This document shows, in pieces, positions 1 to 10,180 of a DNA stretch of 10,180 nt. The position numbers and the translations under genes were made by a program. The notes under the pieces were generated by a model. It searched no databases, had not been told where the DNA came from, and saw nothing but the letters and a program-made list of their open reading frames with translations. Each line of letters begins with the position of its first letter. The stretch's first letter is position 1. Origin of the DNA: Pyrinomonadaceae bacterium (GTDB lineage Bacteria; Acidobacteriota; Blastocatellia; Pyrinomonadales; Pyrinomonadaceae); the NCBI GenBank assembly GCA_013813825.1, contig JACCRA010000149.1:1-10180 (forward strand). The letters run 5' to 3'.

Positions 1-3
1 ACG

Positions 4-8
4 CCTCC
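4..8 (-). promoter_or_regulatory. Ribosome binding site of a gene beyond the left edge
   Basis: Read on the minus strand, GGAGG follows the stop codon of the LysW-like gene by two bases. This suggests that another gene starts just outside the window and is co-transcribed with it. For LysW-type carriers a neighbouring ATP-grasp ligase or amino-acid pathway enzyme would be expected, but nothing of it is visible here. Confidence 0.45.
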
Positions 9-10
9 GG

Positions 11-199
11 CTAATAGTCCTCGTCTTCGTCGTCCCCTAGTTTCTCATCGTCTTCGTCGATGATGTCGAGTTCGACGGGATCAAGCCCGACCACTTCCAA
101 GTCCGTCCCGCACTCGTCGCACTCGACCGCATCGCCTTTGTCAATATCTGTCCCGACGTGAACTTCGGCCGCACATTCTGGGCATGTTCCGGTTGGCAC
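11..199 (-). CDS. lysW: LysW-like zinc-ribbon amino-group carrier protein
   Basis: This 62-residue acidic protein resembles LysW, the carrier to which the alpha-amino group of 2-aminoadipate (or glutamate) is attached by an ATP-grasp ligase during lysine or arginine synthesis in the cytoplasm. The zinc ribbon is complete: CPEC at residues 6-9 and CDEC at 27-30, followed by the family-like stretch LEVVGLDPVEL at 34-44. The start is GTG, with AGGAGG nine bases upstream. The oddity is the tail. Thermus LysW ends in EDWGE, and the last Glu carries the substrate; this protein ends in DEDEDY, with Tyr last. It may therefore be a carrier with different chemistry or a LysW relative with another role. 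The fold assignment is firm and the pathway is not. A further gene probably follows immediately. Confidence 0.8.
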   Translation of the reverse strand: MPTGTCPECAAEVHVGTDIDKGDAVECDECGTDLEVVGLDPVELDIIDEDDEKLGDDEDEDY

Positions 200-208
200 T
201 GCTCTCCA

Positions 209-214
209 CCTCCT
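209..214 (-). promoter_or_regulatory. Ribosome binding site fixing the GTG start of the LysW-like gene
   Basis: AGGAGG on the minus strand, nine bases before the GTG at 199, is a near-ideal Shine-Dalgarno sequence. It supports this non-ATG start, which also places the first zinc-binding CPEC motif at the usual distance from the N-terminus. Confidence 0.7.
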
Positions 215-298
215 GCAATTTAACCAAATGAGAGGAACACCCGCAGCTTTACCGGGGAGACCTCAGTTCTGCAATTTGTCAGGTTTAAGACTTCCGAC

Positions 299-327
299 AA
301 TCTAACCGCCCCCGCTTGATTTTGCAA
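299..327 (-). promoter_or_regulatory. Candidate sigma-70-type promoter for the LysW-like gene
   Basis: On the minus strand a -35-like TTGCAA (322-327) and a -10-like TAGATT (299-304) are separated by 17 bases. Each matches four of six consensus positions. The leader would be about 90 bases. It was found by eye, and such matches occur by chance. Confidence 0.25.
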
Positions 328-410
328 TACTCAATTCTTACATTTGAATAGGCTGGCAAAGGTTGCAACCCGGCTTGTCTGATTATCCTCGCCTGAACAA
401 CTTTTCGACC

Positions 411-529
411 CCTGCGCGCGTCTAAAACTGTGATGAGCAATGTTCAAATAAGTGGGAAATTGAAGACCCGACGCGTTGGTGCTAAACTCACTCCGCCAAC
501 TGCCAGAGCGATTCTGACTCGCGCGCAGG
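411..529. repeat. 10-bp inverted repeat enclosing 99 bases
   Basis: The arms cctgcgcgcg (411-420) and cgcgcgcagg (520-529) are exactly complementary. They could close a structured RNA or leader, but the arms are simple CG alternation, so chance is a fair explanation. No conserved internal motif was recognised. Confidence 0.25.
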
Positions 530-674
530 CACGGCAAGAATAGCTTGCAAAATCTCCGATCAGACAGTTCAGTTTGAATGTTTGATTACATAGCGCATTA
601 ACCACCCCCATTCGTCTTTTTGCGATTTGCCAGGCCGGACTTAGCAAAAGTCTGCCGCAGGGAGATAAAAATCG

Positions 675-1268
675 ATGATTCGTCAGTTTTCTCGAAATGG
701 TTTTGTGGTTCTGTTTGCTATTCTGACCCTCGGTTTCGCAGCCCACGCGCAATCTTCCACCTCTGATTTTCCCCACATCAAGATTAAGAACTTCGGCCAG
801 ATGGACGAGCGTTTTTACCGTGGCGCGCAGCCCAAAGAGGACGACTATCAAGACCTTGCCGCGCTTGGCGTCAAGACCGTCATCGACTTACGCGACGATC
901 CGAAGGATTACGCGCAACCGCTGGTCGAATCGTTTGGGATGCGCTACGTCAATATCCCGATGAGCGATAAACATTACCCGCGCGAGGAGCAACTCGAACA
1001 GTTTCTCACTCTCGTTAACAATCCGGCGACGGGTAAGTTTTACGTCCACTGCGCGGGCGGGCGTCACCGGACGGGCGTGGCGGGCGCTGTCTATCGCTTC
1101 AACCTCTATCGCTGGGATTACGATCAGGTTTACAGCGAGATGAAGAATTATGACTTTTACACGCGCTGGGGACACGGCGACATGAAGAAGTACGTGCAGG
1201 ACTACTGGACGCGCGTTCAGACAAACGGCGCTCCTCTCTCCAATGCCGCTACCGCCGTCACGCGATAA
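675..1268 (+). CDS. Exported tyrosine/dual-specificity phosphatase (PFA-DSP/Siw14-like)
   Basis: A 197-residue cysteine-dependent phosphatase. Residues 1-26 form a signal peptide: a basic start, a hydrophobic core at about 10-22, and an AHA-QS cleavage site, so it should act outside the cytoplasm. The catalytic loop HCAGGRHRTG lies at 125-134, with nucleophile Cys126 and phosphate-binding Arg132. The upstream segments FYRGAQP (47-53) and GVKTVIDLR (65-73) are typical of the plant/fungal atypical dual-specificity phosphatase group, whose eukaryotic members such as Siw14 remove phosphate from inositol pyrophosphates. The general acid may be Asp98 in MSDKH. The substrate here is unknown and could be phosphoprotein, inositol phosphate or another phosphoester. 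GGGAG ten bases before the ATG supports the start. The gene stands alone and converges on the DUF4956 gene. Confidence 0.85.
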   Translation: MIRQFSRNGFVVLFAILTLGFAAHAQSSTSDFPHIKIKNFGQMDERFYRGAQPKEDDYQDLAALGVKTVIDLRDDPKDYAQPLVESFGMRYVNIPMSDKHYPREEQLEQFLTLVNNPATGKFYVHCAGGRHRTGVAGAVYRFNLYRWDYDQVYSEMKNYDFYTRWGHGDMKKYVQDYWTRVQTNGAPLSNAATAVTR

Positions 1269-1286
1269 AAGTTTTTAGAGAGAATT

Positions 1287-1321
1287 AGCAAAGGCCGCTC
1301 GAACCGTGAGCGGCCTTTGCT
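1287..1321. terminator. Hairpin between convergent genes, likely bidirectional terminator
   Basis: A perfect 14-bp stem (1287-1300 with 1308-1321) and a 7-base loop lie 18 bases after the phosphatase stop codon and 62 bases after that of the DUF4956 gene. The stem is GC-rich at its top and ends in A/T pairs. No long T run follows on either strand; the minus side continues taattctctct. It may therefore act as a weak intrinsic terminator or as a 3'-end stabiliser. Confidence 0.65.
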
Positions 1322-1383
1322 GTATAGAAATTGGAACCATCGCTACCCCGGCGGCAACCGCGTGTGGTCTTTGGCTCAAGTCG

Positions 1384-2361
1384 TTAGTTATAAATATAAG
1401 AACTGTTTTTCTGCTGCTCCCACTCGATGCCTTCAATGTTGTTCGGATCGGCACTCAACAGTTCGTCGTTGATCTGGTCGGTCGTGACAAAGACGCTGAT
1501 GCTCACTTGATAAGCGATGCAGCCGACTGGCTCGTTCTCGTCCGGCGGATCAAGTTGGCGCACCTCGTAGTTGAATTTATGCCGCCGGAAAATGCGCTTG
1601 ATGGCGGCCTGCGTCGCGTCCGTGTTGCGCGATTTGACTGTCAGCGACATCGCGCGGTAAATCTTCATTACTTCGTAGTATTCCAGCCCCCACAGCAGCG
1701 GCAGCACGAACAGCGTCAGCACCAACGACAACTCCCAGCGGCCGACGCCCGTCCCCAGTCCGATGGCGAGGCTGCACAGCAAGACTGTAATCTCTTTCGG
1801 ATCACGAATGTTGGTGCGGAAGCGGACGAGCGAGGCGGCGGCGAAGATGCCGAAGGCGCGCGCGGCGCTGTCGCCGACGATCATCATCAGCGAGGAGGCC
1901 ACGACGGCAAGCAAAATTTGCGTCTGCGCGACGTAAGGATTGCGTTGGAGCAGTGGCAAGTCTTTGCGTGGGCGGAAGGCCAGGACGGTCGCGAAGATCG
2001 CCGCGAGGATCAACCGGAACAGAATGCGCGGTACCGTCACTCGCCAACTCTCTTCCGGCATTTGACCGGGGACGGCAGGTTGATCGTCAATGCCGAAAAT
2101 GCTTGAGATGGCTGACTCTCCCGCCGCCCTTTCGGGAATTGGAGTGGCGCGCGGCGACTCGGCACTCGGCGTCGGTTGCGCTACGGGAGTTGCAACAGTT
2201 TGACTCGCCGCTGGCGCACTCGAAGCCGTCGGCTCTTCGTTCTGCCGCGACATGAAGAACGCCACCAGTCCGAACCCCACAGCGGCTGCGATCAGCGGAA
2301 TGATGACAGTCAGCAGCCGGCGCTGCTTTCGACTTTTCAAGTCGTTGTTGTTTTGGCTCAT
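1384..2361 (-). CDS. DUF4956-family membrane protein
   Basis: A 325-residue membrane protein whose core matches DUF4956. A basic N-terminus precedes a first hydrophobic helix (about 16-36), then a Pro/Ala/Ser-rich linker (about 40-105). The membrane core follows, with hydrophobic stretches at about 111-129, 145-163, 190-206 and 208-225. The signature ASLVRFRTNIRDPKE (176-190) precedes a Gly-rich helix, and a soluble alpha/beta domain ends the protein. Its biochemical role is unknown. Family genes are often neighbours of VTC-type polyphosphate polymerases and CotH-like kinases, and here ppk1 and a kinase-like gene lie upstream on the same strand. I chose the ATG at 2361; a GTG two codons upstream is possible, and neither has a strong ribosome binding site. 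The N-terminal helix and linker look like an extra module. Confidence 0.8.
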   Translation of the reverse strand: MSQNNNDLKSRKQRRLLTVIIPLIAAAVGFGLVAFFMSRQNEEPTASSAPAASQTVATPVAQPTPSAESPRATPIPERAAGESAISSIFGIDDQPAVPGQMPEESWRVTVPRILFRLILAAIFATVLAFRPRKDLPLLQRNPYVAQTQILLAVVASSLMMIVGDSAARAFGIFAAASLVRFRTNIRDPKEITVLLCSLAIGLGTGVGRWELSLVLTLFVLPLLWGLEYYEVMKIYRAMSLTVKSRNTDATQAAIKRIFRRHKFNYEVRQLDPPDENEPVGCIAYQVSISVFVTTDQINDELLSADPNNIEGIEWEQQKNSSYIYN

Positions 2362-2426
2362 CGGCACTCAGTCATGGCTGAAGTCGTCAACCACCTCTTA
2401 AACATCCCATCAATCGTAAAACTTAT

Positions 2427-2463
2427 CAGTGCAGCCGAACGGACACGCCCGCCGGCTGCACTG
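2427..2463 (-). terminator. Intercistronic hairpin, possible terminator or attenuator
   Basis: The arms cagtgcagccg (2427-2437) and cggctgcactg (2453-2463) form a perfect 11-bp stem with a 15-base loop, 27 bases after the kinase-like gene's stop. On the minus strand it is followed by ataagtttta, which has a short T run. It could end or reduce transcription before the DUF4956 gene, or protect the upstream mRNA. Confidence 0.45.
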
Positions 2464-2478
2464 GTACCGCAATCATGC

Positions 2479-2490
2479 GTTTCGCGAAAC
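2479..2490. repeat. 12-base perfect palindrome at the kinase-like gene's stop codon
   Basis: gtttcgcgaaac equals its own reverse complement and directly abuts the TGA at 2491-2493. It has the symmetry of a dimeric regulator's operator, but its position at a 3' end and its single occurrence give no functional support. Confidence 0.25.
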
Positions 2491-3453
2491 TCAGCGCGAG
2501 CGAGCCACGCCGCCTGATAAATTATTCAATTCGCTGATCCGCGCGCGAACGGCGGAAGACAAAAGATTGATCTCCGCCGGCGTGTAATTGGCGGCGCGGA
2601 AGGCGTCGCGCAGTTGCTTGTCACTGAGACGGGCGAGGTAGCCGCCGACCCAGCGCGCCTGCCCGACGGTGATGTCGTCGAAGAGTTCGCTTTTCTTGCC
2701 GCCGTAGCTGAAATCGATCTTCTCGCCTTCGATGCCGTCGATGAACTTTGCCTGCTCGAAATCCTTCGGCTTGTTGCGGCTGCGCGTGAGTTGCCAGAAC
2801 AGCCCGCCCGCTTTGCCGAACGTCGCGCCGAGGTCGCTGACCGCATATCTGATCTCTCGCTCGCCCTGCGTGTGGAGGATAACGTTGTTCTCGTCTTTGA
2901 TGTCCCAATTGTTCAAGAGCACCATCATCACCTTCAATCCCTGAAGCTCGTTGGTCCCAGTGAACGGGTTCTTATCCCACAACCATTCATCGTATCGCTT
3001 GACGTTTTCCGGGCGCGCCTCGAACCTTACGTTCTCGAACACGCCCTTGCCCGGAATCGTCACCCGTGGGACGAGATATGTGATTTCGGGAATGTAGCCG
3101 ACTGCCCACAAGAGACGTGTGGCGGCGGCCTCAGACTGCGCCTCTTCGCCGAGCTTGGCGACCCACTCGCGCCCCGAGGCGTCGCGCACGCGATACTTCT
3201 TCGACCAACCGCCCTTCTGTTCCTTGATAAACGTGATCCGTTTCAAGTTCGGCTGCATCGCCTTGCCGCCCGGCCCGTGAAAGAGATCGCGCGTCTTAAT
3301 GTCGGTCGGCTCTTGCCACAGCACGGGCGTGCCCTGCGGCAGCGTCTTCTTCGGTTTCGACTTTTTCTGTTCCGCGAGCGTGGGAGATGAAAGGCTTAAA
3401 ATGAAGATAAAAGTCAGGGCGAGCATCTCGCGAGTTTTGCTCAAATGTTTCAT
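2491..3453 (-). CDS. Exported protein with kinase-fold-like motifs, unknown function
   Basis: A 320-residue protein beginning with a signal peptide (basic MKHLSKTR, hydrophobic core about 11-23, cleavage near TLA-EQ at 26-29), so it is probably periplasmic or surface-exposed. A Lys/Pro-rich stretch follows. The body shows, in kinase order, SKKYRVRDASGREWVAKLG (84-102) with candidate ATP-binding Lys100, an acidic SEAAATRL helix (107-114) with Glu108, NNWDIKDENN (181-190) resembling a catalytic loop with Asp184 and Asn189/190, and SDLGATFG (206-213) resembling a DFG metal-binding loop with Asp207. This arrangement recalls atypical kinases such as the PI3/4-kinase, HipA, Fam20C or CotH type. I do not recognise the family by name and the substrate is unknown. 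The start at 3453 is chosen over one 33 bases upstream because of the GGAGG spacing and the cleaner signal peptide. It lies 36 bases after ppk1. Confidence 0.7.
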   Translation of the reverse strand: MKHLSKTREMLALTFIFILSLSSPTLAEQKKSKPKKTLPQGTPVLWQEPTDIKTRDLFHGPGGKAMQPNLKRITFIKEQKGGWSKKYRVRDASGREWVAKLGEEAQSEAAATRLLWAVGYIPEITYLVPRVTIPGKGVFENVRFEARPENVKRYDEWLWDKNPFTGTNELQGLKVMMVLLNNWDIKDENNVILHTQGEREIRYAVSDLGATFGKAGGLFWQLTRSRNKPKDFEQAKFIDGIEGEKIDFSYGGKKSELFDDITVGQARWVGGYLARLSDKQLRDAFRAANYTPAEINLLSSAVRARISELNNLSGGVARSR

Positions 3454-3461
3454 GCTGAAAA

Positions 3462-3466
3462 CCTCC
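3462..3466 (-). promoter_or_regulatory. Ribosome binding site deciding the kinase-like gene's start
   Basis: GGAGG on the minus strand lies eight bases before the ATG at 3453 and inside the alternative longer reading frame. It therefore favours the shorter start, which yields a normal signal peptide. Confidence 0.7.
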
Positions 3467-3489
3467 GTTAAAAAGTTAATCCACATTCA

Positions 3490-5694
3490 CTATTGACCAT
3501 CGGTGATGCCAGCAGCCGGCCAATCCGTCGCGCAGCAGTAACTGAGCGACGAATTGCCGGCGAAATACAATTGGCTATCAACCGTCTCCTCGCCGGGCGC
3601 GGGGCGGACGCGCTCATAAGTCCCGTCCGGCCGTAACTCGCGCGCCCGCACGTTGTCGCGCAAATACGTCCGCAACACCACATCCTTGAGATACTTTTTG
3701 ATTTGCGGATTGATGATCGGCGCGATCACTTCCACGCGCCGGTCGAGATTGCGCGACATCCAGTCGGCGCTGCCGGTGTAGAGTTCTTCCGCGCCGCCGT
3801 TGGCGAAATAATAGACGCGGCTGTGTTCGAGGAAGCGCCCGACGACGCTCCGCACGCGGATCGTCTCGGATAACCCCGGCACGCCCGGCCGCAACATGCA
3901 GATGCCGCGCACGATGAGATCAATTTGCACGCCGGCCTGCGCCGCGGCGTAGAGCGTGCTGATCACTTCGACGTCGGCGAGCCGGTTAATCTTCGCCACG
4001 ATGCGCGCCTCGCGCCCGGCCGCGGCGTGCTCCGCCTCACGATTGATCAATCCGATCATTCGTTCGCGGAGGTTGACCGGCGCGACGAGCAGTTGCCGGT
4101 ACGCCTTCTGCCGCGAATAGCCGGTCAGGAAGTTGAATAACTCGGTGGCGTCGGCGCCCAGTTTTTCGTCGGCGGTGAGGAGGCCGAGGTCTGTATAGAC
4201 GCTCGCAGTCGCCGGGTTGTAGTTGCCGGTCGCGATGTGCAGGTAGCGGCGTAGCGTGTCGCCTTCGCCGCGGACGACGAGCGCGATCTTGCAATGAGTC
4301 TTGAGGCCGAGCAGGCCATAGACGACGTGGACGCCCGCCTTCTCCAGCCGCTGCGCCCATTCGATGTTGTGCTCTTCGTCGAAGCGCGCCTTCAGTTCGA
4401 CCAGCGCCGTCACCTGCTTGCCTTGCTCGCTCGCCTCAATTAGTGACTGCGGAATCGGCGACTTGGCCCCTGTCCGGTAGAGACAGATTTTGATCGCTTG
4501 CACTTCCGGATCGTGCGCCGCCGTATGAATGAAATCGGTGACGGTCTGGTACGAGGTGTAAGGGTGATGCAGCAGGATGTCCTGCCGTTTGAGCACGTCG
4601 AAGATCGAGACGCCTTTGTGCAACGAGGCCGGTACAGTCGCCCGCAACGGCTTGTCTTTCAAGTCCGGCCGGTCCAGTTTGTACAACTCCATCAAGTCGG
4701 TCACGTCGAGCGGATCGTCCACGAGATACACATCGTCGGGCGTCAGGTCGAGCGACTTGGTCAGGTAACTGATCATCTCGGCGGGCATCTTCGAGCTGAC
4801 TTCGAGGCGCACCGCCTCGCCGAGGCGGCGCTTTTGGAGCGTCTGCTGCATCGAGCGCAGAAGATCTTCAGCCTCCACGTCGCGCACTTCGATGTCGGCG
4901 TCGCTCGTCACACGGAAAGCGTGGCACGGGCCATAGAGCATTCGCGGGAAAAGTGTCTCGGTGCTCGCGGCGATCAAATCGCTTAACAGAATGAACCGGG
5001 AATTAGTAGCCTCCACCGGAATCAGGCGGGGCACGCGCTGAGGAATTTTAATGCGGACGAAGCGCGGTTCGACCTTGCCGGTCAGCGAGCGTGTAATGCC
5101 ATGCTCAAGCGACGGTTCGACCATCAAAGCAAGATTCAAGCTCAGGTTCGAGATGTAGGGAAATGGATGGCCGGGATCGACGCCCTGCGGCGTCAGCACC
5201 GGAAACACCTTCTTCTCAAAGTAATCGTCAAGCCGCTCCTGTTCATCGAGCGAGAGTTGCTGGTACGAGACGAGTTGAATGCCTGCGGCTTCGAGTGGCG
5301 GCAGCACTTCTTCGCGCAGGCAACGCGCGTGCTCAGCGATCATTTCAAGGACGCGCTTCCTGATCTCGCCTAACTGCTCGGCCGGCGTCAGGCCGTCCGG
5401 CGAAGGGTCTTCTATCTTCTCGTCCACGCCCTCTTTCAGCCCCGACACCCGGATCATGAAATACTCGTCCAAGTTCATCGAAAAGATGGCGAGGAATTTC
5501 AGGCGTTCGAGCAACGGCTGATCAGCATCGAGCGCCTCTTCGAGCACCCGGCGAAAGAATTCGAGCAGACTCAACTCGCGGTTAAAGAGCAGGCGGCTCA
5601 TCGGCGTCGAATCGAGTGGGACGCGCTCTGTCGGCATTCCTGTAATTTCCGGTTCCGGGCTTCCCTGATCCACCGGGGTTGATTGACTGGTCAT
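3490..5694 (-). CDS. ppk1: Polyphosphate kinase 1
   Basis: A 734-residue PPK1, which reversibly transfers the gamma-phosphate of ATP to inorganic polyphosphate. The N-terminal domain opens with FNRELSLLEFFRRVLEEA (37-54) and LLERLKFLAIFSMNLDEYFM (61-80), as is typical of the family. The head domain follows, with GHPFPYISNLSLNLA (175-189). In the catalytic domains, LYRTGAKSPI (405-414) and KARFDEEHNIEWAQ (435-448) supply the magnesium- and phosphate-binding arginines. KTHCK (465-469) contains His467, the expected autophosphorylated histidine. LEHSRVYYF (622-630) contains the second conserved His624, and TGSADWMSRNLDRRVE (640-655) the phospholipase-D-like motif. Length is normal, and the last 30 or so residues are not conserved to my eye. 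No clear ribosome binding site precedes the ATG; a start at Met20 is possible. It is probably co-transcribed with the kinase-like gene downstream. Confidence 0.97.
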   Translation of the reverse strand: MTSQSTPVDQGSPEPEITGMPTERVPLDSTPMSRLLFNRELSLLEFFRRVLEEALDADQPLLERLKFLAIFSMNLDEYFMIRVSGLKEGVDEKIEDPSPDGLTPAEQLGEIRKRVLEMIAEHARCLREEVLPPLEAAGIQLVSYQQLSLDEQERLDDYFEKKVFPVLTPQGVDPGHPFPYISNLSLNLALMVEPSLEHGITRSLTGKVEPRFVRIKIPQRVPRLIPVEATNSRFILLSDLIAASTETLFPRMLYGPCHAFRVTSDADIEVRDVEAEDLLRSMQQTLQKRRLGEAVRLEVSSKMPAEMISYLTKSLDLTPDDVYLVDDPLDVTDLMELYKLDRPDLKDKPLRATVPASLHKGVSIFDVLKRQDILLHHPYTSYQTVTDFIHTAAHDPEVQAIKICLYRTGAKSPIPQSLIEASEQGKQVTALVELKARFDEEHNIEWAQRLEKAGVHVVYGLLGLKTHCKIALVVRGEGDTLRRYLHIATGNYNPATASVYTDLGLLTADEKLGADATELFNFLTGYSRQKAYRQLLVAPVNLRERMIGLINREAEHAAAGREARIVAKINRLADVEVISTLYAAAQAGVQIDLIVRGICMLRPGVPGLSETIRVRSVVGRFLEHSRVYYFANGGAEELYTGSADWMSRNLDRRVEVIAPIINPQIKKYLKDVVLRTYLRDNVRARELRPDGTYERVRPAPGEETVDSQLYFAGNSSLSYCCATDWPAAGITDGQ

Positions 5695-5842
5695 AGTGTT
5701 CGTTAGACGGGGGAATCGCCCTTCGGCGTTGACAACTCGCCAGGAAAAAAAGACTTTTTATAATTGCTTGAGCAACAAAATCCCACGAACTGTAATACCG
5801 CTCAGCGTCTTGGAAGATAAGGCTAGTAAAGCATACACAAGC

Positions 5843-5872
5843 ACTATTCCCAAATTTGCTGGCGGCTGACAA
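5843..5872 (-). promoter_or_regulatory. Candidate promoter for ppk1
   Basis: On the minus strand TTGTCA (5867-5872, five of six matches to -35) is followed after 18 bases by AATAGT (5843-5848, four of six to -10). The leader would be about 140 bases. A TATAAA nearer to the gene (minus strand, near 5760) has no good -35. No pho-box-like repeat was recognised. Confidence 0.3.
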
Positions 5873-5953
5873 TTCCCATCAAACTGTGGCTTTTGCTGCA
5901 ATTTCCTGAAGACTTGAAAATCTCAAAACCTCATCAAATGCCTATCTAGCGAC

Positions 5954-6048
5954 GGGGAGAGGGGGAGGCTATGGAAACGATTGAGAGACTTTCAGCCAGA
6001 CTTTACCCATCCTCTGATCTCCCCTTCTCCCCCTCTCCCCTTCTCCCC
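5954..6048. repeat. Polypurine/polypyrimidine element with direct and inverted repeats
   Basis: The 14-mer ctccccttctcccc occurs twice with a 16-base period (6019-6032, 6035-6048). A second 14-mer, ctccccctctcccc (6027-6040), is the exact reverse complement of ggggagagggggag at 5954-5967. A hairpin with a 59-base loop is thus possible just downstream of the CBS gene, and the uninterrupted pyrimidine strand could favour unusual DNA structure. It looks like simple-sequence intergenic DNA rather than a defined mobile element. Confidence 0.6.
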
Positions 6049-6066
6049 GTTTCCGCCCACTCGCCT

Positions 6067-6492
6067 TCACAACCCTGTCATCTCGTGCAGCAGGCGCAAC
6101 TCGTCGCCCTGCTCGCTTAGTTCGACACGCATGATGTCGCGCATCGAGAGCATCCCCACCCATTGGCCTCCGCGCATGACGGGCAGGTGGCGTGTGCCGT
6201 GCTGCTCCATCCGTTCCAGTGCCTGATGCGGCGTGTCGCTACACTCGATGAAAACATCAATGGCGCTCATTACGTCGCGCACCGGCACGCCTGCCGGGTC
6301 CAGTTTCGGGAGCACGACGCGCCGCAGCAAGTCGCGCTCGGAGAAGATGCCGGTTAACTCTTCCGCCTCGCTTAGAACGCAGACCGCGCCGATGTTACGC
6401 GAGGTCATATACTCAGCCGCGTCTAACGCGGTCGCCGACTCGCGTAACGAATATGGCTCGCGGTCGCGGATGACATCCGCAATTGTAATCAT
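6067..6492 (-). CDS. Protein of two CBS domains
   Basis: A 141-residue cytoplasmic protein made almost entirely of a CBS pair (Bateman module). The first repeat spans about 1-60 and ends with the typical LTGIFSERDLLRRVV (46-60). The second spans about 70-128, opening with VRDVMS (71-76) and ending with WVGMLSMRDIMRVEL (110-124). Such stand-alone proteins bind adenosine nucleotides (AMP, ATP, SAM) and usually modulate partners or sense energy or redox state. The partner is not identifiable here. GGAGG eight bases before the ATG gives a firm start. The gene lies 372 bases upstream of ppk1 and about 240 downstream of the radical SAM gene, so it is probably transcribed alone. Confidence 0.92.
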   Translation of the reverse strand: MITIADVIRDREPYSLRESATALDAAEYMTSRNIGAVCVLSEAEELTGIFSERDLLRRVVLPKLDPAGVPVRDVMSAIDVFIECSDTPHQALERMEQHGTRHLPVMRGGQWVGMLSMRDIMRVELSEQGDELRLLHEMTGL

Positions 6493-6537
6493 TGTTTCTC
6501 CCTCCGCCCGGTGTGAATGTCGATGGAGCTTCCCAAT

Positions 6538-6566
6538 GTTTTAATTCTTCGCCGCGAGAAGATCAA
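6538..6566 (-). promoter_or_regulatory. Candidate promoter for the CBS gene
   Basis: On the minus strand TTGATC (6561-6566) and TAAAAC (6538-6543) are separated by 17 bases, each with four of six consensus matches. This would give a short leader of roughly 40 bases before the ATG at 6492. Confidence 0.35.
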
Positions 6567-6568
6567 GG

Positions 6569-6596
6569 AAAAGGCATGAGGCAAAAGGCATCAGGT
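6569..6596. repeat. Two tandem copies of a 14-base purine-rich unit
   Basis: aaaaggcatgaggc (6569-6582) is followed directly by aaaaggcatcaggt (6583-6596), identical at 12 of 14 positions. It resembles in composition the other intergenic simple repeats of this window. No function is evident. Confidence 0.5.
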
Positions 6597-6731
6597 AAAA
6601 ATGCGGGATTGAGCCGGAGAGATGATTCTCGATCCAGCGGCGCGTGTTCGGTCAGAGTCTGCTGTGCGATTATTTAAACTCCTTCCTAACTCTTTTGTTC
6701 GTCCGCTCTACCAATTTTTGCTTTTTTGCCT

Positions 6732-7754
6732 TCACTCGAAGAGCGAGCCTTGTGCCGTCGGGCGGCGGAAAGTGCGATGCACCGGCGTTTGGCGTTGGTC
6801 CTCCACGTTCAATCCGAGACGTTTGCAGTGGAGCTTGAACATCTGCGAGACGACGCGCCATTGCTCGCTCTGCCCGCGCATCCGCTCGCCAAACTGGCTT
6901 GAATTGAGCCGCCCGCCGCGCGCTTCGCGCAAGCGGTTCAGGACGCGCTCGGCTTTGGTCGGCAGGCGTTCATGCAGGCGCTCGATAAAATATGGGGCGA
7001 CGCTGCCGGGCAGACGCAACATGCCCATGAAGGCCGTCCCGGCTCCGGCCTCGCGCGCCCGCTTCAGGAGCCTCGGGATGTGCGAATCGTTCAGGCTCAA
7101 AATGACGGGAGCGACCGCGAGGCCGACCGGAATGCCGGCGCGCGACAGTTCTTCCATCGCCTTGAAGCGCGCGTCCGGCGCGGGCGCGAATGGTTCCAAC
7201 GCGCGTGCCGTCTCATGATCGCTAAATGGGATCGTAAAGAACACCTCGACCGCCGCCTGCCGGTGCAACTCGACGAGCAGATCGATGTCGCGCCGCACTA
7301 ACGCGGACTTGGTGATCAGGCTCACGGGGTTGCGAAATTCAAGACAGACTTCAAGGCATTTCCGCGTCAGACAATAATGTGCTTCGAGCGGCAAATATGG
7401 ATCGGAGGTAAACGAGAAGACGAGCACATCGCCCTTCCAAGAGGGGCGCAGCATCTCACGCCTGAGCAGTTCGGCGGCACGCACCTTGACGACGATCTTG
7501 CGCTCGAAGTCGGTGCCCGCGCCCCAGCCGAGATACTCGTGCGTCGGGCGCGAGAAGCAGTAAGTACAGGCGTGCGGACAGCCGCGATAGACGTTAACGC
7601 TATAGTCGAAGCCCACGTCGGGGCTGTTGTTATGCGTGATGATCGAGCGGGTCGCGTCCTCCTCGAAGACTTCCTGACGCGCCTCGGGCGGCTCGCCGAT
7701 CCACTCGACGTGCGTGCTGCTCCACGGGCTGGGTGGGTTCTCAACGTAACGCAT
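6732..7754 (-). CDS. PA0069-type radical SAM protein (SplB-like)
   Basis: A 340-residue radical S-adenosylmethionine protein. The iron-sulfur cluster motif CPHACTYC (59-66: Cys59, Cys63, Cys66) follows NVYRGC, and [20 protein letters not shown] (71-90) follows it. These features, with [13 protein letters not shown] and the [12 protein letters not shown] segment further on, match the family annotated as PA0069/Rv2578c-like, related to spore photoproduct lyase. The reaction of these non-sporulator members has not been established to my knowledge. The length is normal. A TTG six codons upstream could extend the frame. I prefer the ATG at 7754, where family-like sequence begins; both have only a weak GAGAG upstream. 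It lies 83 bases after the PilZ gene on the same strand, so a two-gene transcript is possible. Confidence 0.9.
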
Positions 7755-7837
7755 CTTTCGACTCTCAGGCAATTCGACTCTCTCTGAGGATGCTACCGAT
7801 CAACTCGGAGGCCCGGGCGAGAGTCACCCTGCCTGAC

Positions 7838-8149
7838 TCATTGCCCGAGGCCGTGTGAGAGCAGTTCTTCAAGCGCGGCCTCTTCTTCCGCGCCGGAGCC
7901 GGTGAAGCGCAACGCAAAACCCATCTCGGAAATCTGATAGACCACTTCGGCCCAAAGGTAAATCTGTCCGTCATCAGGCAGCCTGATTTCCAGCCGGATC
8001 AACTCGCTGGGCTGCACCTTATCAGAGGTCAAGAGGAAACAGCCGTTGCGGCTACTATCAACAATGATGCCCTCAAAGCGACCCAACACGCCCTCCCAAC
8101 GGGCTTCGAGATTGAGTTTTGCGCGTCCGGCTTTTCTCCGGTCTTCCAT
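7838..8149 (-). CDS. PilZ-domain cyclic-di-GMP binding protein
   Basis: A 103-residue single-domain PilZ protein. Both ligand-binding motifs are intact: RKAGR (5-9, RxxxR) and DSSRNG (31-36, DxSxxG). A beta-rich body follows, including LIRLEIRLPDDGQIYLWAEVVY, then a helical end rich in Glu and Ala. It should bind cyclic di-GMP in the cytoplasm and act as a small adaptor; the target is unknown. The start is the ATG at 8149, preceded by AAGGGG five bases upstream. Upstream in-frame starts (8170, 8221) would add a non-conserved stretch without good ribosome binding sites. The radical SAM gene follows after 83 bases. Confidence 0.9.
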   Translation of the reverse strand: MEDRRKAGRAKLNLEARWEGVLGRFEGIIVDSSRNGCFLLTSDKVQPSELIRLEIRLPDDGQIYLWAEVVYQISEMGFALRFTGSGAEEEAALEELLSHGLGQ

Positions 8150-8154
8150 AATTT

Positions 8155-8160
8155 CCCCTT
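8155..8160 (-). promoter_or_regulatory. Ribosome binding site deciding the PilZ start
   Basis: AAGGGG on the minus strand is five bases before the ATG at 8149. The resulting protein begins MEDRRKAGR, a common beginning for single-domain PilZ proteins. Confidence 0.55.
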
Positions 8161-8424
8161 CGTCCGTCATAGATCGCCGCTGCTTTGACGGGCAGTCAAT
8201 GATAGTTGAAAGCCTGTTCATCAAACGTCCCGGCGAGTTTAAGAGTCGCCAGAGATATTATCCACGATGAATCGCAAAGCAGGGAGCGTAAATGCTCGAC
8301 GGCGAGCGGCCGGCGGAAGCAACAAGTCAACCGCACACGGAACAGACTTGCTTGCTTAACTCTTCGCGGCTGCTCTACTATCTTCGCGCGCCTGCGGATT
8401 GACTGCAATTGCGGGCGTTTCTCA

Positions 8425-8453
8425 AACATAAGTTTTGACACCCGCTTTATCAA
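8425..8453 (-). promoter_or_regulatory. Candidate promoter toward the PilZ gene
   Basis: On the minus strand TTGATA (8448-8453, five of six to -35) is 17 bases from TATGTT (8425-8430, four of six to -10). If used for PilZ, the leader would be about 270 bases, which is long; it might instead drive a small RNA. Confidence 0.3.
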
Positions 8454-8487
8454 GCAACGATTTCCGCGCTCGCTCACAGCCGATGCC

Positions 8488-8538
8488 GGGACGGTCCTCC
8501 ATCGCTGAGTTTTCTTTTATGCATTGGAGGCCCGTCCC
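8488..8538 (+). repeat. Imperfect 14-bp inverted repeat upstream of the SPOR gene
   Basis: gggacggtcctcca (8488-8501) pairs with tggaggcccgtccc (8525-8538) at 13 of 14 positions around a 23-base, T-rich loop. It ends 26 bases before the SPOR gene's ATG, so it could be a leader hairpin near the ribosome binding site, a terminator-like structure or an operator. A further palindrome, cccgcggg, overlaps its end (8535-8542). Confidence 0.5.
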
Positions 8539-8564
8539 GCGGGAAATCTGAGAGCCTCGGTATC

Positions 8565-9611
8565 ATGATCATCTTTTGCCCGAAATGCCAACTCAGGGGT
8601 GAAATCGTGGACGCGCCGGAGGCGGCGTTCTGCCTTCGCGTGACGTGCGTCCGGTGCTCGTCCGCCTTCATCGTTACGGCAATTAACGACGAAGCGTTAA
8701 TTGTTCTCGACAAAACGTCTTCCGGCAAACTGCCCTCTGCCTCCGCCGCCATCGCTGACGCCATCGCCCAGACGACGCCCGCCGCCACTACGGCTACGGC
8801 TGCCGCCCGCCCCGCCGCAAAGTCAGCCGCGGGCGACGACACGCCGCTGCCACCGCGACCGTCTTCACTACGCGAACGCATCGCACTCGCTGACGCGCCG
8901 GCCTCATCCACACCACAACGACGGACAGCCGAAGCGGCGGCTTCATCTCCCACCATGCCAACCCCTGTCCCCGCCGCCACCGCCCGTCCGGCGGCAGACT
9001 CTTTCGACACGGCGTTATACTCGCAGCCCGCGACGATGCCGCAAATGATTGTTCAACCAGTTGACGGCTACGACACCGGCTCGCGTCTGCTGCGGGTGTC
9101 GCCGCTCTGGTGGCTCGCCGCCGGAGTTGCTGTCGCCGCTTTCGTCATCTTCTGTAACTGGCTGATCCGACCCGGAACCAACTCGCGTGATGCCGCCGTC
9201 AATCTTTCGCGCCCGCTGCCGCGCGGCTCCTCGGCCGGCAACAGCACCGCGAATCAGAATTTGACCGTGCCGACCGAAGATGAGACGACCTCCGACGACG
9301 ATTTGCCCGCCGCTCCGTCCCCGGCGCTGATTACGCCACAAGGGACCAATGATGCAAGCGGTGGTCGCGGCGCAGGCTTCACAGTGCAACTCGGCTCCTT
9401 CAACAAGATTGAAGAAGCGCAGGAACTGATCGCGAGCCTCGCCGCCACTGGCATTTCCGCGCGCCTCGACGCACGCCCGGCGTCAAAGAAAAAAGTCTGG
9501 TATCGCGTCCACTCCGGCCTCTTCGCGAGCCACGACGAGGCCGCCGCCTACGGCCGTCAACTTCGCGCCCAAAAGGCAGCCACCGATTTCGTCGTCACAC
9601 CGACAAACTAA
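8565..9611 (+). CDS. Zinc-ribbon, transmembrane and SPOR domain protein
   Basis: A 348-residue bitopic membrane protein. Residues 1-40 hold a zinc-ribbon-like module with CPKC (5-8) and CVRC (28-31), resembling MJ0042-type N-terminal fingers. A long low-complexity Ala/Pro/Ser/Thr linker (about 55-165) leads to one transmembrane helix at 181-201. A second, acidic linker follows, and then a C-terminal SPOR domain (about 271-346) with GFTVQLGSFN and VWYRVHSGLF. SPOR domains bind peptidoglycan strands stripped of stem peptides, typically at the division septum. The finger would be cytoplasmic and SPOR periplasmic, suggesting a protein tying a cytoplasmic partner to the cell wall. The ribosome binding site is weak (GAGAG ten bases upstream). 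It is transcribed alone and ends at the large palindrome. Confidence 0.88.
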   Translation: MIIFCPKCQLRGEIVDAPEAAFCLRVTCVRCSSAFIVTAINDEALIVLDKTSSGKLPSASAAIADAIAQTTPAATTATAAARPAAKSAAGDDTPLPPRPSSLRERIALADAPASSTPQRRTAEAAASSPTMPTPVPAATARPAADSFDTALYSQPATMPQMIVQPVDGYDTGSRLLRVSPLWWLAAGVAVAAFVIFCNWLIRPGTNSRDAAVNLSRPLPRGSSAGNSTANQNLTVPTEDETTSDDDLPAAPSPALITPQGTNDASGGRGAGFTVQLGSFNKIEEAQELIASLAATGISARLDARPASKKKVWYRVHSGLFASHDEAAAYGRQLRAQKAATDFVVTPTN

Positions 9612-9674
9612 AGGTGAAAGGCGAAAAGTGAAAGAGAGTAAGCCTTACTCTCTTTCACTTTTCGCCTTTCACCT
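9612..9674. terminator. 31-bp perfect inverted repeat between convergent genes
   Basis: The left arm 9612-9642 and right arm 9644-9674 are exact reverse complements around the single base 9643; a real hairpin loop would open a few central pairs. It begins right after the SPOR stop codon and ends one base before the VOC gene's stop, so it can form in both transcripts. One arm is nearly all purine, with repeated gtgaaag units. No T run follows. It may be a bidirectional terminator, a dispersed palindromic repeat, or both. Confidence 0.75.
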
Positions 9675-9675
9675 C

Positions 9676-10044
9676 TTACTTATCGTGCCATGTGACAAAA
9701 AACAAGCGGTAGTGATCCGGGTCTTCTAGTGTGACGAAGCGCCCGCCCCAGCCTTCGTCGTCGGGCATGGTAACGTCCACGCCGCGCGCGGACAGATCAC
9801 GGTAATAGTCTTCGACGTTCTCGACGCCGAAGAAGAAATGGACGCCGCGCCCGCGCCGCGCCATCGTCAGCAGTTGCTCGGCCAGCATCACCTTCAAGCG
9901 TCCGGCGCGCAACGTCGCCATCGGCGGCTCGCCGCCCGGCGTCGCCGAGACCAACTCGAATCCCAGACGGTCGCAGTAAAACTCGATTGAGTCTTCCAGC
10001 TTGTTGACTTCCAGAAACAGCAGATCGAGACCCGTCAGGCTCAT
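9676..10044 (-). CDS. VOC-superfamily (glyoxalase/bleomycin-resistance-like) protein
   Basis: A 122-residue single-subunit VOC protein, normal length for the fold, with two beta-alpha-beta-beta-beta modules. The first is LDLLFLEVNKLEDSIEFYCD (6-25) and RLGFELV (26-32). The second is VHFFFGVENVEDYYRDLSAR (68-87) and GGRFVTLEDPDHYRLFFV (100-117). The superfamily includes metal-dependent lyases, dioxygenases and drug-binding proteins. The usual first-strand His is absent, and the last strand reads YRLFF instead of carrying the metal-binding Glu, so a metal enzyme is doubtful. The substrate is unknown. It starts six bases after the upstream membrane-protein gene ends and has no ribosome binding site of its own, suggesting translational coupling. 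Confidence 0.88.
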   Translation of the reverse strand: MSLTGLDLLFLEVNKLEDSIEFYCDRLGFELVSATPGGEPPMATLRAGRLKVMLAEQLLTMARRGRGVHFFFGVENVEDYYRDLSARGVDVTMPDDEGWGGRFVTLEDPDHYRLFFVTWHDK

Positions 10045-10050
10045 AATTTA

Positions 10051-10180
10051 TTAGATAGCGGTCAGCAATTGATAGACGACGTACACGCCGCCGACGACGA
10101 GCGACCAGAAAACGGCTTCCTGCGCCCAGACGAGCCGGCGCAGAGGGTTGGCGGGCGTCGTTCCTTCGCGCGCATAGCCA
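10051..10180 (-). CDS. C-terminal end of a membrane protein (cut by the window edge)
   Basis: The last 42 codons of a minus-strand gene that begins outside the window. The visible part reads as a soluble stretch with PANPLRRLVWAQEAVFW followed by a hydrophobic helix (SLVVGGVYVVYQLLTAI) ending at the stop. Two consecutive TAA codons (10051-10053, 10048-10050) close it, directly upstream of the VOC gene, so the two are probably co-transcribed. The family cannot be recognised from this fragment. Confidence 0.6.
   Translation of the reverse strand, partial: GYAREGTTPANPLRRLVWAQEAVFWSLVVGGVYVVYQLLTAI

Follow-up and report, generated by a model that had tools for sequence, protein, structure and literature searches.

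Introduction

The function of the DUF4956 domain is unknown, and only three of the open-licence PMC papers searched name it. As described in one report, cotH, a polyphosphate polymerase gene and a DUF4956 gene form an accessory set beside pel genes, such as pelDEADAFG (PMC7112168). This VTC-DUF4956-CotH gene set has so far been unexplained. A second paper describes CotH as a protein kinase and calls the source of ATP for exported CotH unanswered (PMC7821199). In yeast, the VTC complex couples the synthesis of polyphosphate to its passage through a channel lined by basic residues (PMC9911596). Here, we describe a row of three genes in a 10,180-nt stretch of DNA from a Pyrinomonadaceae bacterium (contig JACCRA010000149.1, positions 1 to 10,180; hereafter, the window is this whole stretch), which looks like a variant of the VTC-DUF4956-CotH set built from other polymerase and kinase families.

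Similar to the cotH-polymerase-DUF4956 set, the row unites DUF4956, a polyphosphate-making enzyme and a predicted exported atypical kinase. It differs from that set in that polyphosphate kinase 1 (PPK1) replaces the VTC-domain polymerase, in that the kinase has no detected sequence similarity to CotH, and in that an exported phosphatase converges on the row. None of the Pfam-scanned genes of the window was recognised as a pel gene, and no description of this gene row was found in the open-licence PMC literature, judged by titles and the beginnings of abstracts.

Composition and conservation of the gene row

On the minus strand, the genes are arranged in the order PPK1, kinase-like protein and DUF4956. 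The ppk1 gene (3490..5694) encodes a protein of 734 aa that was identified as PPK1 by both Pfam and NCBIfam, with all four Pfam PPK domains and a match of 947 bits to the NCBIfam PPK1 subfamily model. The second gene (2491..3453; likely start ATG at 3453, with the frame open to 3486) encodes an exported protein of 320 aa with a predicted atypical-kinase fold, and the third (1384..2367; GTG start at 2367, or ATG at 2361) encodes a membrane protein of 327 aa that matches DUF4956 (PF16316) with 46 bits against a cut-off of 30.6. Gaps of 36 nt (3454-3489) and 123-129 nt separate the first two and the last two genes, respectively. The identities of PPK1 and DUF4956, the common strand and the 36-nt spacing are as given in the initial annotation.

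That annotation named a survey of the neighbourhoods of DUF4956 and of the kinase-like family as one check on its proposal, and the survey revealed that the row is conserved in relatives, a group of soil bacteria. Profile searches of 60 related genomes, many of them incomplete, yielded 73 kinase, 25 DUF4956 and 56 PPK1 copies after second pieces of genes, fragments and five weak partial rows had been dropped from the 75, 26 and 63 rows obtained; all probabilities given here ignore the kinship of these genomes. The 25 DUF4956 copies are distributed over 21 genomes, and the partners found upstream on the same strand are PPK1 at 11 loci, the kinase at 13 and both at 9, with the kinase of a 14th locus on the other strand. 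By chance, PPK1 would be expected within 3.5 kb of DUF4956 at about 0.06 of the 25 loci, as compared with the 11 observed; this estimate is rough, assuming 1.5 PPK1 copies in 4.5 Mb, and is not a p-value, because the loci are related.

A collection of 30 named DUF4956 loci, 11 of which match contigs of the 60-genome set in length, was analysed with our own profiles and gave a similar picture. PPK1 is present at 18 of these loci and an exported kinase at 24 (kin at 19 and kin2 at 5), with PPK1 and a kinase together at 16. The phosphatase was found at 19 loci and all four genes at 12. Neither PPK1 nor a kinase is present at four, two of which start at a contig end inside DUF4956, while another (L139) has a gene for a PLD-fold protein 3.8 kb downstream. 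Loci with both kin2 and PPK1 have the order kin2, PPK1, DUF4956. In 22 of 24 pairs, the distance between the PPK1 and kinase genes is between -4 and 159 nt; the remaining two pairs show larger overlaps, based on longest-frame starts. Between the kinase and DUF4956 genes, there is an overlap of exactly 4 nt in 9 of 29 pairs, and at most loci other than the window these two genes overlap or are less than 100 nt apart. G164 has 4-nt overlaps at both junctions.

The 41 loci fetched with their flanks were picked for DUF4956, PPK1 or the kinase, so that the counts of these three (19, 22 and 30) prove nothing. No locus was chosen for the phosphatase, and its recurrence at 17 of the 41 is therefore unbiased by selection. 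Because any other family outside the block occurs at seven or fewer of these loci, the block is better kept than its surroundings.

Exchange of partners around DUF4956

VTC (PF09359) was absent from all of the 60 relatives, including the window genome (78% complete), and CotH (PF08757) from 59 of them, the window genome among these; the sole CotH (G014) adjoins a DUF4956 of the more usual kind. In a wider sample of 199 Acidobacteriota genomes, 35 DUF4956 copies were found in 26 genomes. VTC lies near 13 of these 35 loci, 8 of which also have CotH. The association of DUF4956 genes with polyphosphate polymerases and cotH, which the initial annotation noted and PMC7112168 states in print, is thus borne out in this phylum. 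Kin or kin2 is present at 12 loci, four of which also have a PLD-fold protein and four others PPK1. VTC and the kinase family do not occur together at any of the 35 loci (Fisher p 0.0009, ignoring relatedness). The kinase-DUF4956 pair was also found in further families of the phylum. Of 14 control genomes, three have DUF4956, and VTC was found in these same three only.

Some of these loci had contributed to the widened profiles with which they were scored, having first been found with unwidened ones. The 12 kinase loci include G085:C45a, where the kinase is on the other strand, and G214:C76, where kin2 lies approximately 2 kb upstream of DUF4956 and scores 127 bits with the widened profile and 61 with the unwidened kin profile.

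In four of the 35 loci, DUF4956, a PLD-fold HKD protein, a phosphate-selective porin (Porin_O_P) and CotH stand in line, and a fifth has the porin and CotH; a porin-type match was also obtained at one VTC locus (G085:C38). The four loci are L201, L204, L207 and L210 (G166, G214, G157 and G117, respectively); their porins were identified by Pfam in L204 and L210, and in L201 and L207 by a profile built from those two. This make-up suggests a passage of phosphate or polyphosphate across both membranes.

A phylogenetic tree was constructed from 34 of the 35 DUF4956 proteins (that of G160:C153 was not recovered for the alignment or the tree). Of the 22 proteins from loci without VTC, 21 fall into one clade of 21, with a support of 99 in the SH-like approximate likelihood ratio test (SH-aLRT). 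Because VTC (13 of 35) and the kinase (12 of 35) never co-occur and the PLD/porin/CotH arrangement is found in four loci, DUF4956 looks, from gene content, like a shared centre whose polymerase-side partners (VTC, the PLD-fold protein or PPK1) and kinase-side partners (CotH, kin or kin2) are exchangeable.

PPK1 of the row

H467 and H624 of the window PPK1 align with both catalytic histidines of Escherichia coli PPK1, H435 and H592. Together with the further catalytic-type residues R407 and R437, they are kept in all 29 row and all 16 lone PPK1s compared. In a tree of 47 sequences, which are not all of the PPK1s found in the relatives, 29 are in a row with the kinase or DUF4956 and 18 are alone. 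The label changes only 3 times on this tree, as compared with a mean of 14.5 for shuffled labels, and none of the 500 shuffles was as low. A single clade (SH-aLRT 99) holds 16 of the 18 lone PPK1s. The other two, which sit among the row PPK1s, carry the row residues, T429 and R571, at the two positions where row and lone PPK1s show near-fixed differences, and their genomes hold a kinase-DUF4956 pair elsewhere. The window genome contains both kinds, one in the row (C554) and one alone (C425). 'Alone' was judged within the fetched flank, mostly 1.5 kb; the survey of the 60 relatives backs this label with respect to kin and DUF4956, though not to kin2. The root of the tree is unknown; at the root as drawn, the row PPK1s are not one clade and the lone ones nearly are. 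The tree suggests that the row PPK1s are, with few exceptions, a lineage separate from stand-alone PPK1s.

The exported kinase-like protein

The second protein of the row has no Pfam or NCBIfam match at E≤1, and sequence searches against the PDB were without a match. Its model is predicted to have a kinase fold (predicted local distance difference test score, pLDDT, 91), and the closest solved folds are those of CtkA, PI4KIIα, Fam20C, HipT/HipA and CotH. Conserved residues are K100, E104, E108, D184-x-K186-x-x-N189-N190 and D207-x-G209, of which K100, E104, E108, D184, N189 and D207 are invariant in 136 sequences of the family. Similar to Fam20C, CotH, CtkA and HipA, the protein thus has the predicted fold, a lysine, a glutamate and two aspartates; it differs from these in forming a family of its own with no detectable sequence relation to PDB chains. 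By its modelled fold, catalytic lysine, glutamate, and catalytic and metal-binding aspartates, whose roles were assigned by motif order and not on coordinates, it would belong to the atypical (PKL) kinases, and it may be active as such. The family comprises 7022 proteins at E≤0.001 (7999 scored); a plasmid search with the kinase gave no match.

The N terminus resembles a signal peptide when judged by eye which, together with the predicted fold, agrees with the earlier description of a signal-peptide protein with kinase-like motifs. A crude signal-peptide rule was positive for 72 of 74 kinases, 17 of 17 phosphatases and none of 19 PPK1s, yet also for 207 of all 407 called genes, and it thus offers weak support for export.

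Kinase copies also occur in other settings. Apart from the phosphatase family, the neighbours of 24 partnerless copies include only a recurrent exported gene (five loci) and a metallophosphatase-type gene (three loci). In L125, L126, L221, L223 and L224, an apparently exported protein of approximately 307-338 aa is encoded directly upstream of lone kinase copies in one family, and is a possible substrate or partner. In L123 and L124 (G049:C15 and G045:C25), the kinase gene adjoins genes for an exported PhoD-like metallophosphatase and a PLD-fold protein, and neither genome gave a match to DUF4956. In L108-L111 (G011:C45, G014:C86, G017:C72 and G028:C15), an ABC exporter, identified by Pfam in the L109 copy (PF00664 and PF00005) and by clustering in the others, has the kinase gene(s) on one side and the convergent phosphatase on the other.

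The DUF4956 membrane protein

The DUF4956 protein consists of an N-terminal helix, a low-complexity linker, five further helices and a C-terminal ferredoxin/ACT-like domain. An R182-F-R184-T motif is located in the five-helix part, and its two arginines do not vary among the 34 alignable proteins of the phylum loci. Like the eukaryotic VTC complex, to which it has no demonstrated relation in sequence or fold, the row would make polyphosphate on the cytoplasmic side and has a membrane protein in which basic residues are conserved; translocation by DUF4956 is putative. PDB sequence searches with DUF4956 gave nothing or chance-level rows. Assignment of the membrane part to a known fold was rejected, because its pLDDT is about 54-79 and the fold matches span residues 236-325 only.

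Convergent phosphatase and intergenic hairpins

Convergent with DUF4956, a gene on the plus strand (675..1268) encodes an exported phosphatase of the dual-specificity/tyrosine type (PF22741, 71 bits; cut-off 27). Its HCAGGRHRTG active-site motif contains the HCX5R signature of dual-specificity and protein-tyrosine phosphatases, and HC..G..R[ST] is present in all 17 members of its cluster, that of the window included. The phosphatase is a recurrent fourth member of the row and is on the opposite strand in all 19 named loci that have it, one of which has it 3.3 kb away. L211 (G077:C40) belongs to another family of the phylum; here, the phosphatase gene shares 4 nt with the kinase gene, and both are in one operon with DUF4956.

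A terminator-like hairpin on the minus strand (1287..1321; 14 pairs, 9 of them G-C) follows DUF4956 in the space where the two genes converge, and is likely a terminator of the row. Between the kinase and DUF4956 genes, where the initial annotation had placed a hairpin and 129 bases, we located the stem at 2427..2463 on the minus strand. The 123-nt region has a folding z-score of -2.5, with 4 of 200 shuffles equally stable, and the hairpin is followed by a run of just four U and was not among the output of the terminator scan; it is a possible attenuator. We rejected the idea that, owing to this hairpin, DUF4956 is generally a gene apart from the row, because DUF4956 overlaps the kinase gene at other loci.

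Possible function of the gene row

The initial annotation proposed that PPK1 and an unrelated kinase-like protein could fill the roles of VTC and CotH. This is partly supported. The comparison of sequences reveals the conserved row, the exchange of partners around DUF4956, the kept order, the overlaps and the split between row and lone PPK1s. On balance, we lean towards the interpretation that the row is a conserved functional module joining internal polyphosphate to phosphorylation in the envelope. The row's own PPK1 would make polyphosphate in the cytoplasm, next to DUF4956, which, in the inner membrane, would receive, pass or sense it. Polyphosphate may thus pass by way of DUF4956 to a system for phosphorylation in the envelope, in which the exported atypical kinase would phosphorylate a target and the co-located exported phosphatase, presumably opposing the kinase, would reverse this. 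In a far-reaching version, which we consider improbable, the polyphosphate that PPK1 makes is threaded via DUF4956 to the periplasm and serves the exported kinase directly as phosphoryl donor, and the VTC-DUF4956-CotH set is the same device made of other families.

Several observations weigh against such a module. In both genome surveys, the PPK1 partner is confined to the window's own family. As many as 47 of the 73 kinase copies in the 60 relatives are near neither PPK1 nor DUF4956, and only 8 of the 27 strong kinase matches (E≤1e-40) in the phylum sample are within 5 kb of DUF4956 (at E≤0.001, the profile matches 33 of the 199 genomes, but many of these rows are short, weak and probably due to chance). 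Five of the 35 phylum loci have no VTC, kinase, PPK1 or porin, one of them having a PLD-fold gene on the other strand. An ABC exporter takes the place of DUF4956 in G011, G014, G017 and G028, the hairpin at 2427-2463 parts the kinase from DUF4956 in the window, and the transmembrane model of DUF4956 is of low confidence (the pLDDT range given above). Finally, in a report on Streptococcus intermedius, a mutant of the polymerase in its VTC-type set still aggregates and makes Pel, whereas deletion of the neighbouring membrane gene or of cotH lowered aggregation by >50% in one medium, with Pel amounts up in the membrane-gene mutant and down in the cotH mutant (PMC12345266). The membrane gene, described with four helices and an ACT domain, is probably a DUF4956 gene, judging from PMC7112168.

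Another explanation, which we consider rather unlikely, is that DUF4956 is an MgtC-like regulator rather than a conduit and that the genes form one phosphate/magnesium-stress regulon, in which PPK1 stores phosphate, DUF4956 tunes the balance of ATP or phosphate, and the exported kinase acts separately in the envelope. In both DUF4956 and MgtC, an ACT-like domain at the C terminus comes after the membrane helices. The Pfam MgtC match of DUF4956, however, is below the cut-off (21 bits against 31.4), many ACT-like folds match its C-terminal structure as well as MgtC does, and DUF4956 has the R-F-R-T motif. The overlaps, the fixed order and the partner exchange around DUF4956 also suggest more than shared control.

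The exported enzyme might instead phosphorylate a lipid or glycan and not a protein, thereby decorating an envelope polymer on which the PLD-fold partners also act. We consider this unlikely, given that the protein kinases CtkA, Fam20C, HipA and CotH are among the closest folds, and that a dual-specificity-type phosphatase as a neighbour fits a phosphoprotein, although it would also fit a phospholipid or phosphosugar. Co-location without function, through slow rearrangement among related genomes, could explain why the nine triads found in the 60 relatives all come from a single family, but it is highly improbable, because flanking genes are far less kept, order, strand and overlaps are kept, and the kinase-DUF4956 pair extends to other families of the phylum.

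Conclusions

The row in the window is a new version of the known VTC-DUF4956-CotH gene set, and the exchange of partners turns a vague association of DUF4956 into a testable rule. Our analysis also brings out a large unnamed family of exported proteins with a predicted kinase fold, together with a lineage of PPK1 that is linked to this family. Through DUF4956, polyphosphate-type chemistry within the cell may be connected to a kinase outside and, if the improbable reading of polyphosphate as the phosphoryl donor were true, bacteria would have an ATP-free route to phosphorylate their envelope.

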